Positions 59,177 through 62,128 of a stretch of DNA of 64,000 nucleotides are shown piece after piece; within the stretch, counting starts at the first letter, position 1, and the number at the start of each line of letters is the position of its first letter. The notes under the pieces were generated by a model. It saw nothing but the letters and a program-made list of their open reading frames with translations, did not search any database and was not told where the DNA came from. The DNA comes from Henriciella sp. Lineage in GTDB: Bacteria > Pseudomonadota > Alphaproteobacteria > Caulobacterales > Hyphomonadaceae. The translations under genes were made by a program, and so were the position numbers. The stretch is from positions 207,094 through 271,093 of the forward strand of contig JASJAO010000007.1 of the NCBI GenBank assembly GCA_030066975.1, given 5' to 3'.

Positions 59177-62128
59177 ATGAAAGAAAAACACAATCGCGAC
59201 AAGCCGCACGTGAACATCGGTACAATAGGACATGTCGATCACGGAAAAACGACGCTTACGGCCGCCATAACCATGGTTCAGTCAAAACGCGAGGGTGCCC
59301 GATTCAGATCGTATGACGATTTGGATTCAGCTCCGGAGGAGAAGGCTCGAGGAATCACAATTAATACTGCTCACGTTGAGTATGAGACTGAGAATCGACA
59401 TTACGCTCATGTCGACTGCCCAGGGCACGCCGACTATGTGAAAAACATGATCACAGGTGCCGCGCAAATGGACGGTGCCATACTAGTTGTAAACGCTGCA
59501 GAAGGACCGATGCCTCAAACGAGAGAGCATGTCTTGTTGGCCCGTCAAATTGGTGTGCCTGCGCTTGTCGTTTTTCTGAACAAGGTCGACGAAGTTCAAG
59601 ATGAGGAGCTCTTGGAGCTTGTCGAACTAGAGGTTCGTGAGCTTCTGAACATGTACGAATTCCCGGGAGATGACGTTCCCGTCATTCGCGGGTCCGCGCT
59701 CGCAGCAGTCGAAGGCCGCGACCCGTCGATTGGTGAAGACAAAATTGTTGAACTTCTCTCAGCAATAGATCGCTTTGTTCCAACACCCGAACGCCTGATG
59801 GATAAGCCGTTTCTAATGGCGGTTGAAGATACATTCTCAATAACCGGAAGGGGTACGGTCGTAACTGGTCGCGTTGAAACGGGAGTTATTCGAGTTGGCG
59901 AAGAAGTCGAAATCGTCGGAATGCGCGACACTCAAAAAACGACGATTACCGGAGTTGAAATGTTCCGAAAGCTTCTCGATCAAGGGCAGGCTGGGGACAA
60001 TATCGGTGCGCTAATTCGGGGAATCGACCGAGAAAACGTCCAACGAGGTCAAGTTCTATGTGAGCCAGGCTCGATTACGCCATATACCAAGTTTGAAGCG
60101 GAAGCATACATTCTAACCAAAGAAGAAGGCGGACGCCACACCCCGTTCTTTTCTCAATACCGGCCGCAGTTTTACTTCCGCACAACCGATGTCACTGGCG
60201 AAGTAACACTCCCGGAAGGCACCCTTGAGGTCCAGCCAGGCAGCAACGTGAATTTGAATGTTGAGTTAGTTCAACCAATCGCGATGAATCCCGGTTTAAG
60301 GTTTGCGATTCGGGACGGCGGACGAACGGTTGGCGCAGGCGTGGTGACCGGCATGGCGGCCCCCGTTCGCGGTTCGCATTCGGCTCAAGTGCTGCCGCCC
60401 GTGCAAACGTCGCCACCGTTTCCGCCATCACCAAAGCAAAACGCCGCAGAGCCAACACCGGATGTTGAAGCCCTTTTCGAGAACTCAAAAACCTTCTACC
60501 CAAAAATTGATACTTCAATTGATGCACCTCAATCAGGGCAGACTCTTTCGATTACGGTTTCGATCGACGCGCAAAAGGCAGAGCAAACAACAGGAACAAT
60601 CCAAGTCCCCGACACAGATGAGGATATTGAGTTCTTGGTGAGCCTACTTTTCGCTGGTCAGCAACAGAAGGCACCACTGATCTTTTCCGCAACACATGGG
60701 ACGAAAAAGAAAGCTGAATTCGAATTTAGAGTACCACCAGGCTTCTCGGAGCCCACGACACTCACAATCGTAGCAACGTTCTCATTCAACTCACGCTGGT
60801 GCGGGGAAGGACGCCGAGAGATTACCGTCTTTCCATCAGAAGAAACATCCGCTGGCGTGACCGGCGGCACCGGCGACGCAGGAGGATCATCTGATCGAGG
60901 AGGAGCAACGAGCGGAAATGGAAACGATAGCGGTAGTCCCAATTCGAACGGGTCGGGATTCAAGTTTAATGGCTCATCGGATCCGCCATTTCTAACCGTT
61001 ACCATTTTGCGCAACGATCACGCACCCACTTACGTATGGAGTTGTGACAGTCCATATTTGCCTGACGATTATCTGCAAAAACGCGCTAAAGAAAGCAGTG
61101 ATCGCGTTGGATATTATACGAGTGACCTTGGCGATGACGCACAAACCTTCGTAAAGCAGTTTTTTGAACCGCATGCGGGGGGAGACCTTTCGACGGCTGA
61201 TGTCCAAGCGCTTAAAGGTCTAGGCGAACACATCTTCAGATGCGCGCCGCAAGTTTTTTACGATGCCTATTGGTTCCTCCGAGATGAAGCGTCCCGCAGA
61301 CAAATGAACTTCGAAAGCATACAGTTTGTTTCGTGCGAGACGGCAATCCCGTGGGAACTCATGCGCGTGGTTGACAGAAATGATGCCGTCGAACCGGAAT
61401 TTCTTGCCGTGCTTCATAGCGTTGGTCGTTGGTTTCCAAAGGGCAATCCTCCTCTCAGACAACAACGCAACATTTCAAAAATGAGGGTCGGCGCAACGGA
61501 CTATAAAAATGTTAAATCCAAGCGACGTCCAAAAGAGCTTCCTGGGGCTTTAGAAGAACGCGATTTCCTCGCGCGGAATTTCAAAGTCAGCGATGTCCCG
61601 TTGCTGGCTGATAAGATCATCCATCTCCTAACCGAAGAAGACTTCGATCTTCTGCATCTCGCTTGTCACGGTGACACCGTAACATCGCAAGCCTCACTGA
61701 CGCGCCTCGTTATGGAGAACACGCCGGAGAATGACATAGTTCCCACTATGATCAATGAGTGGTCGGTTCGACGAAAGCTACGTCAAACCGCACCGGTCAT
61801 ATTCTTGAACGCCTGTCAGAGCGCAGCAAGCGGGCGAACTCTATCGATGATCGCCGGATTTCCGTCGGCATTTGTTGAAAGTGGAGCTTCCGCACTAATC
61901 GCGCCATTGTGGTCGGTAGGAGACGACGCGGCGCATCAAATTGCTCAAACATTTTATGAAGAACTAAAATCTTCTCCAGGCAAAACCGTAGGCCAAGTTC
62001 TGAAAAATATTCGTGCTGAATGGCAATCCAAAAAAAGTCTGACCTACCTAGCCTACGTTCTCTATGGCGATCCGGATGCGCGGATCAAATTCCGAAATAA
62101 GATTCAGTCACATGGGGGAGATGAATGA
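59177..62128 (+). CDS. EF-Tu fused to a CHAT caspase-like protease
   Basis: A 983-residue fusion. Residues 1-390 form a complete elongation factor Tu: GHVDHGKT (18-25), GITINT (59-64), DCPGH (80-84, with the catalytic His84), NKVD (135-138), and domains II and III ending in GLRFAIRDGGRTVGAGVV. Numbering matches E. coli EF-Tu. A Pro-rich linker (391-430) leads to a beta-rich domain of unknown family (430-558), then a Gly/Ser/Asn linker (558-598). The C-terminus is a CHAT domain with His831 (LHLACHGD) and Cys880 (FLNACQSAASG). Its stop overlaps the hydrolase gene. GC is below the local average. I infer an EF-Tu decoy or sensor that controls the protease; certainty of the domains is high, of the role modest. 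Confidence 0.93.
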   Translation: MKEKHNRDKPHVNIGTIGHVDHGKTTLTAAITMVQSKREGARFRSYDDLDSAPEEKARGITINTAHVEYETENRHYAHVDCPGHADYVKNMITGAAQMDGAILVVNAAEGPMPQTREHVLLARQIGVPALVVFLNKVDEVQDEELLELVELEVRELLNMYEFPGDDVPVIRGSALAAVEGRDPSIGEDKIVELLSAIDRFVPTPERLMDKPFLMAVEDTFSITGRGTVVTGRVETGVIRVGEEVEIVGMRDTQKTTITGVEMFRKLLDQGQAGDNIGALIRGIDRENVQRGQVLCEPGSITPYTKFEAEAYILTKEEGGRHTPFFSQYRPQFYFRTTDVTGEVTLPEGTLEVQPGSNVNLNVELVQPIAMNPGLRFAIRDGGRTVGAGVVTGMAAPVRGSHSAQVLPPVQTSPPFPPSPKQNAAEPTPDVEALFENSKTFYPKIDTSIDAPQSGQTLSITVSIDAQKAEQTTGTIQVPDTDEDIEFLVSLLFAGQQQKAPLIFSATHGTKKKAEFEFRVPPGFSEPTTLTIVATFSFNSRWCGEGRREITVFPSEETSAGVTGGTGDAGGSSDRGGATSGNGNDSGSPNSNGSGFKFNGSSDPPFLTVTILRNDHAPTYVWSCDSPYLPDDYLQKRAKESSDRVGYYTSDLGDDAQTFVKQFFEPHAGGDLSTADVQALKGLGEHIFRCAPQVFYDAYWFLRDEASRRQMNFESIQFVSCETAIPWELMRVVDRNDAVEPEFLAVLHSVGRWFPKGNPPLRQQRNISKMRVGATDYKNVKSKRRPKELPGALEERDFLARNFKVSDVPLLADKIIHLLTEEDFDLLHLACHGDTVTSQASLTRLVMENTPENDIVPTMINEWSVRRKLRQTAPVIFLNACQSAASGRTLSMIAGFPSAFVESGASALIAPLWSVGDDAAHQIAQTFYEELKSSPGKTVGQVLKNIRAEWQSKKSLTYLAYVLYGDPDARIKFRNKIQSHGGDE

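Follow-up and report, generated by a model that had tools for sequence, protein, structure and literature searches.

An EF-Tu-CHAT protease fusion in Henriciella as a candidate integrated-decoy immune receptor

Why a bacterium should carry an additional copy of elongation factor Tu (EF-Tu) welded to a protease is the question raised by one locus in a 64,000-nucleotide window of a Henriciella sp. genome (contig JASJAO010000007.1, positions 207,094 to 271,093; the window denotes this whole stretch). The locus encodes a protein, here P0001, in which an EF-Tu stands N-terminal to a CHAT protease domain, and a gene for an alpha/beta hydrolase follows it (Table 1). The answer that we favour, at somewhat better than even chances and on sequence comparison, is that P0001 is an integrated-decoy immune receptor, whereby a phage protein or toxin that hits the EF-Tu part would switch the protease on.

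The original prediction described a single open frame joining a complete three-domain EF-Tu to a CHAT protease with a His831/Cys880 dyad, and both parts of that description hold for the 983-residue frame at 59177-62128. Residues 2-392 of P0001 match the TIGR00485 EF-Tu equivalog with 699.2 bits (cut-off 522.4) over positions 3-391 of the 394 in the model, all three Pfam EF-Tu domains are matched, and the G motifs GHVDHGKT (18), RGIT (58), DCPGH (80), NKVD (135) and GSAL (172) are intact. The CHAT domain (PF12770) is matched at residues 724-947 with 83.8 bits against a gathering cut-off of 24, and His831 and Cys880 stand at the predicted positions and are invariant in an alignment of the P0001 CHAT module with 39 relatives (40 rows). 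A model of the tail (predicted local distance difference test, pLDDT, 81.1; predicted template modelling score, pTM, 0.80) gave structure matches led by Csx29 and separase, and the CHAT part is predicted to have a CHAT/separase-like fold. The whole-fusion model reached a pLDDT of 68.5; few rows were given, which left EF-Tu domains 2-3 poor, and no EF-Tu/CHAT contact was therefore read from it.

The host genome (3.57 Mb, 99.98% complete) has its own tuf on another contig, together with two further tuf ends at contig borders that are 94% and 99% identical to that tuf in DNA sequence. The fused EF-Tu shares 79.5% protein identity and 70.3% DNA identity with the host's own tuf, with proportions of nonsynonymous (pN) and synonymous (pS) differences of 0.127 and 0.83. 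An assembly join was rejected because of this DNA divergence, a mis-joined tuf being expected near 100% identity, because of the amino-acid constraint, because the EF-Tu/CHAT junction is the natural EF-Tu end, and because the fusion gene lies whole within one 271,093-base contig. A caveat is that the cassette stands at the end of this contig, with the hydrolase gene ending 358 bases short of it. Over residues 50-108, which presumably hold switch I and switch II, the fused protein is identical to the product of the host's tuf, with 36 of the 59 codons silently changed; G+C content at third codon positions (GC3) is 0.50 in the fused EF-Tu versus 0.745 in the host's tuf, and CTG is used for leucine 3 times versus 20. 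Because of this identity, these silent changes and this codon use, we read the surface of the fused EF-Tu as kept and the codon bias that goes with high expression as gone: the fused copy is, on these comparisons, under purifying selection and has lost the codon bias of tuf, which argues for the decoy reading.

Changes in the protein include loop 350-356 and Glu380 (Glu380Asp), in columns that are more than 90% conserved. Glu380 is presumably the equivalent of E. coli Glu378, a contact of the tRNA T-stem, and one may speculate that the changed loop and Glu380Asp could mean weaker tRNA use, as would fit a bait. What we take to be the Lit cut site, Gly59-Ile60, is kept, as is Thr384, presumably the counterpart of E. 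coli Thr382, the target of Doc.

The ancestry of the fused EF-Tu was read from a tree of 54 rows, made up of 8 fused and 46 distinct natural EF-Tu sequences. P0001 is sister to the 16 rows of its own genus (support 99/94); four other fusions (P0020, P0044, P0018 and P0039) cluster with a natural tuf of family f27 (support 100/91), and P0038, P0052 and P0066 are placed elsewhere with weaker support, the tree containing no actinobacterial EF-Tu for P0066. The end branch of P0001 is long and was flagged by the tree program. On this tree the fused EF-Tu derives from the lineage of its own genus, a host-matched capture, and this match, with the other fusions falling elsewhere, is a second reason for the decoy reading.

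A third reason is that EF-Tu stays constant as the effector varies. Of 5499 EF-Tu relatives of 540-1720 residues, 120 are listed. Most of the 120 join EF-G to EF-Tu, read through between tuf and rpsJ, have EF-Tu twice, come from organelles or plants, or end in frame-shifted tails; some pairings with unrelated enzymes may be chimeras. Five of the 120 carry effector-like domains: P0066, with a CHAT domain that is 26% identical to that of P0001 in a local match and has its own dyad (H798/C842); P0038 and P0044, with a DUF900 hydrolase and tails 27% identical to each other; P0020, with a dynamin-like GTPase (CrfC model, 259 bits, under the cut-off of 1146); and P0052, with an EACC1-type caspase N-terminal to EF-Tu (NF047832, 142 bits versus a cut-off of 140). 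P0018 and P0039 have in common a 167-residue tail, at 46% identity. Occurrence in this assembly only, which the original prediction had named as a sign against it, holds among the sampled genomes for the exact protein; it does not extend to the architecture, of which P0066 is a second example. A reading of the P0020 linker as a translated tRNA was dropped, as ARAGORN found no tRNA in the Pseudorhodobacter counterpart. As a separate observation, the EF-Tu proteins P0065, P0097 and P0113 end in similar tails, each about 180 residues long (REYEASGG...VVEPHRDSFTFLWST) and without a Pfam match.

The CHAT module shows the reverse arrangement, a constant module behind varied N-termini, which likewise supports the decoy reading. 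With residues 396-983 of P0001 as the query, 93 proteins were matched, 52 of them (P0122-P0173) over at least 89% of the query at 27-36% identity. By Pfam, the N-termini of these 52 are cold-shock (3), DUF4062 (3), GroEL (1), TCAD7 (1), HEAT (1) and PF26784 (1), and 42 have no Pfam label. Apart from this pattern, cold-shock domains were seen inside the CHAT proteins P0157, P0158 and P0159 and at locus L038, and P0157 has a weak NCBIfam match to the retron Se72 effector (47.5 bits, cut-off 82), which is a cold-shock protein too.

GroEL repeats the pattern, with CHAT, TIR, hydrolase and caspase partners, and is a further reason for reading these fusions as decoys. When the GroEL part of P0163 served as query, 102 proteins longer than about 620 residues were matched, many of them GroES-GroEL read-through, inteins or plant proteins; Pfam labels among the 102 include CHAT (10), TIR (3), alpha/beta hydrolase (2) and caspase (1). 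The GroEL equivalog cut-off is passed by 8 of the 9 proteins tested and failed by P0310 (410 versus 582). Nine of the ten GroEL-CHAT proteins have the CHAT module of P0001 and group in a single clade (support 98, quick tree); at least one architecture of a housekeeping protein with CHAT has therefore lasted and spread.

The original prediction did not mention the hydrolase gene at 62125-63642. Among 80 CHAT-module loci kept from named genomes, a hydrolase match is present at 29, nine of which have hydrolase and CHAT in one frame; nine loci match the P0001 module closely (E <= 6e-76), and the same hydrolase lies downstream in 8 of these 9, the exception being L012. CHAT plus a DUF7379 hydrolase is, by these comparisons, a recurring cassette, and its presence at so many loci also argues for the decoy reading.

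Further grounds come from the neighbourhood of P0039, the Litoreibacter EF-Tu fusion, together with the status of EF-Tu as a target. P0039 lies about 5.6 kb from the Septu genes PtuA (422 bits) and PtuB (115 bits), in the order PtuA, PtuB, a small opposite-strand gene, a 138-residue frame, an HD protein, a GHKL ATPase, the EF-Tu fusion and a 221-residue gene without a Pfam match; PADLOC gave no match to the EF-Tu fusion, and P0039 is present at full match in 1 of 394 genomes of its family. That EF-Tu is a known target, as originally stated, agrees with the available passages of PMC9712102, in which Lit cleaves EF-Tu upon T4 infection, and with the titles of PDB entries for EF-Tu complexes with the toxins Tse6 and CdiA; a title in a reference list also has EF-Tu as the target of Doc.

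As observations in their own right, the Litoreibacter locus (genome G947, L164:2801-12924) has an operon-like run of HD protein, GHKL ATPase, EF-Tu with the 167-residue tail and 221-residue gene, about 1 kb past PtuA/PtuB, and this run may be a separate defence system. In genome G264 (same genus; L161:7528-8997) an EF-Tu stands alone and is highly divergent, at 57% identity and on a long branch; the genes next to it look by eye like flotillin/NfeD/PspA-type stress genes.

How such a receptor might work can be put in a few steps. In resting P0001 the EF-Tu part would keep CHAT off by way of the beta-sandwich and linkers. The EF-Tu/CHAT contact would be altered if EF-Tu were cut in switch I, modified, or captured by a protein from a phage or a toxin from another bacterium; the trigger could thus be of phage origin or a toxin delivered by contact. 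Once active, the CHAT protease would cleave its targets. The partner hydrolase would most likely be one of them and, acting as a lipase or esterase, would harm the membrane, leaving the infected cell of no further use to the phage. A protease-activated hydrolase is proposed by analogy with PMC12799240, which describes caspase-nuclease (Canu) and pro-nuclease pairs in which protease activation turns on a co-encoded enzyme. The Canu caspase has an Ig-like fold and its partner is a metallo-beta-lactamase (MBL) nuclease, whereas the partner of P0001 is an alpha/beta hydrolase whose activation we infer.

Plants provide a precedent in principle, as nucleotide-binding leucine-rich-repeat (NLR) receptors with integrated decoys hold a copy of a pathogen target within the immune receptor. 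The principle is that proposed for P0001; kingdom, receptor and effector are unrelated. P0001 does include a host protein, in copy, that is a target of invaders, as seen from the tree, the Lit passage and the PDB titles. In the Lit/Gol exclusion of T4, as given in the available part of PMC9712102, EF-Tu is attacked during infection, as proposed here, but Lit is a host protease with EF-Tu as its target, whereas in P0001 EF-Tu shares one chain with the protease, whose proposed sensor it is. CapRel, in the same source, has sensor and effector in one chain with one restraining the other, and phage capsid activates the fused antitoxin sensor; its sensor is an antitoxin-like domain, that of P0001 a copy of a housekeeping protein. 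In Csx29/TPR-CHAT (TPR, tetratricopeptide repeat) of type III-E CRISPR (Craspase) the sensor is the RNA-guided Cas7-11, whereas in P0001 EF-Tu lies within the protease chain. No TPR part is matched by Pfam in P0001. Nor is a SAVED domain, so that P0001 falls outside the SAVED-CHAT type of the cyclic-oligonucleotide-based anti-phage signalling system (CBASS); the sole PADLOC match to P0001, SAVED_CHAT at 16.8 bits, covers the CHAT part alone (818-931).

The original prediction knew of no described system with this layout. For EF-Tu-CHAT itself this stands, as no paper in open-licence PubMed Central (PMC), a set outside which subscription papers and preprints lie, combines "CHAT domain", EF-Tu and "fused"; it needs correcting for a phrase in Kaur et al. 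2020 (PMC7159879), the available passages of which mention EF-Tu a single time, as one of the variable domains that EACC1 systems join to their caspase, and read these as effectors. That paper alone, among the open-licence PMC papers listed, brings EACC1, elongation factor Tu and caspase together; neither "CHAT" nor "GroEL" appears in its available text, which also states that the caspase-type peptidases of VMAP systems always adjoin an alpha/beta hydrolase. EACC1-caspase systems, as described there, resemble P0001 in pairing a caspase-superfamily peptidase with a variable domain, EF-Tu among them. They differ in having an N-terminal caspase and a membrane protein, EACC1, as partner, whereas P0001 has EF-Tu N-terminal, CHAT C-terminal and a DUF7379 hydrolase as partner. 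The locus has neither an N-terminal caspase nor a 5' EACC1 gene, the gene 5' of the fusion being PhoX-like (PF05787). The EF-Tu-CHAT-hydrolase cassette and the bait proposal are thus new to the open-licence PMC papers searched.

Among other explanations, an unlikely one that deserves the most attention is that P0001 senses the state of translation: the EF-Tu part would read GTP/GDP, aminoacyl-tRNA or stalled ribosomes, and the protease would fire upon translation collapse of any cause, the decoy itself being untouched. All G motifs of P0001 are intact, translation shut-off is common during infection, and GroEL fusions could likewise read folding stress; however, the loop 350-356 and Glu380 have changed with the GTPase face (50-108) unchanged, and the same module also stands behind cold-shock, TCAD7 and DUF4062 domains, which have no obvious translation readout. 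It is improbable that EF-Tu is effector or cargo, released or used by CHAT against the invader, as Kaur et al. 2020 (PMC7159879, available passages) propose for EACC1 variable domains and as P0052, which is of that type, might suggest, because a near-native EF-Tu does no evident harm to an invader in a cell already rich in EF-Tu, EF-Tu occupies the sensor or adaptor position held by TCAD7 and DUF4062 in relatives, and codon usage does not suggest high expression. A little less probable again is a targeting device, in which EF-Tu, intact and so perhaps still able to engage its partners, anchors the protease at ribosomes or on nascent chains to cut a translation-linked substrate, with sensing elsewhere; this leaves unexplained the GroEL and cold-shock parts at the same place and the fusion of EF-Tu to hydrolases and dynamin. 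Least credible is a chance fusion or assembly artefact without function, which the great rarity of the fusion, the contig end just downstream and the accidental-looking EF-Tu joins might favour, and which is already largely refuted, on sequence grounds, by DNA divergence from the host's tuf under strong amino-acid constraint, by the intact CHAT dyad and hydrolase partner, and by the independent EF-Tu-CHAT protein P0066.

Several points weigh against the decoy reading. The mechanism, including trigger, protease activity and defence, is proposed from sequence; the effector interpretation of EF-Tu in the available passages of Kaur et al. 2020 (PMC7159879) comes from a related setting; and many of the listed EF-Tu joins look like products of read-through or assembly, so that fusion alone is weak evidence. 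P0001 keeps 115 of the 118 EF-Tu columns conserved at 98% or more, columns defined on a set that includes the other fusions. Within the window, whose end is also that of the contig, no other defence genes were recognised near the fusion, and the exact protein is rare, so that it offers no close-relative population for selection tests. In favour of the bait idea of the original prediction, the recurrence of effectors and N-termini, the own-genus EF-Tu and the Septu-adjacent fusion provide indirect support; activation itself remains a proposal.

Table 1. Features of the P0001 locus (window coordinates) and GroEL fusions recorded in the analysis
Feature	Position or proteins	Strand	Basis
Hairpin after upstream phoX-like gene, terminator-like on - strand, near-palindromic stem; separates phoX-like gene from cassette	58703..58736	.	
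EF-Tu-CHAT fusion gene, product 983 aa (P0001)	59177..62128	+	single open frame, domain matches
EF-Tu part, residues 1-393, three domains, G motifs intact	59177..60355	+	profile matches, motif check
Pro-rich linker, residues 394-436, low model confidence	60356..60484	+	sequence, pLDDT
Predicted all-beta sandwich, residues 437-552, common to CHAT-module family	60485..60832	+	tail model, family alignment
Gly/Ser-rich linker, residues 561-600, predicted disordered	60857..60976	+	sequence, tail model
CHAT region, residues 606-972; predicted fold Csx29/TPR-CHAT- and separase-like	60992..62092	+	PF12770 at 724-947, tail model
His831 codon (LACHG)	61667..61669	+	alignment, residue check
Cys880 codon (LNACQ)	61814..61816	+	alignment, residue check
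Partner gene, 505-aa alpha/beta hydrolase (PF24096/DUF7379), AHSRGG serine = residue 303	62125..63642	+	Pfam match; 4-nt overlap with fusion gene
GroEL-CHAT proteins	P0163, P0216, P0222, P0226, P0227, P0229, P0232, P0236, P0260		
Further GroEL fusions to CHAT, TIR, alpha/beta hydrolase or caspase domains	P0224, P0228, P0235, P0281, P0293, P0294, P0310 (caspase)		

The surroundings of the cassette bear on its origin. Its three parts have a G+C content of 0.50-0.51 versus 0.57-0.63 in five other genes of the window, which suggests a foreign or mobile ancestry. The stretch 63712-64000, at the contig end, has on the - strand what is taken to be the end of an Orn/Lys/Arg decarboxylase gene and, from 63933 on the + strand, presumably the start of an IS3-like transposase. 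The phoX-like gene is present in 4 of 29 congeners, including this genome; because its neighbours are different genes in the other three, no empty site could be demonstrated, and a local island defined by empty-site comparison was dropped. At full match the P0001 CHAT module was found in one genome each among 398 of the order and 398 of the phylum, with one further genome in each set matching the CHAT part alone. Among viral contigs, 18 stretches fit a pattern, none of which encodes a relative of the CHAT module, and no plasmid record gave 80% coverage of P0001, P0044, P0020, P0163 or P0039; a longer plasmid match in Pseudorhodobacter turbinis proved to be an ordinary 391-residue tuf. In an EF-Tu locus sample, many members of which came from a class search that scored at most 4 candidates per genome, the only C-terminal extension at the 54 readable of 60 loci, among the matches listed, was that of P0001 itself; a 661-residue tuf frame in genome G656 was set aside as an ordinary tuf preceded by an open frame.

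Whether the principle extends beyond this locus is evenly balanced in our judgement: there may be a general integrated-decoy arm in which copies of EF-Tu, GroEL and perhaps cold-shock proteins are welded to CHAT, caspase, TIR, alpha/beta hydrolase and dynamin-like death effectors, and it is an equally close call that the EF-Tu-CHAT cassette is one case of it. If true, bacteria would have a new route of sensing infection, baiting immune receptors with a copy of the attacked host protein much as plants do, and sensors could be sought by sequence, without prior knowledge of the trigger, as housekeeping proteins joined to death effectors. Such a principle would account for the fusions of EF-Tu and GroEL to immune enzymes and would make the sequence of bait and then protease directly testable.

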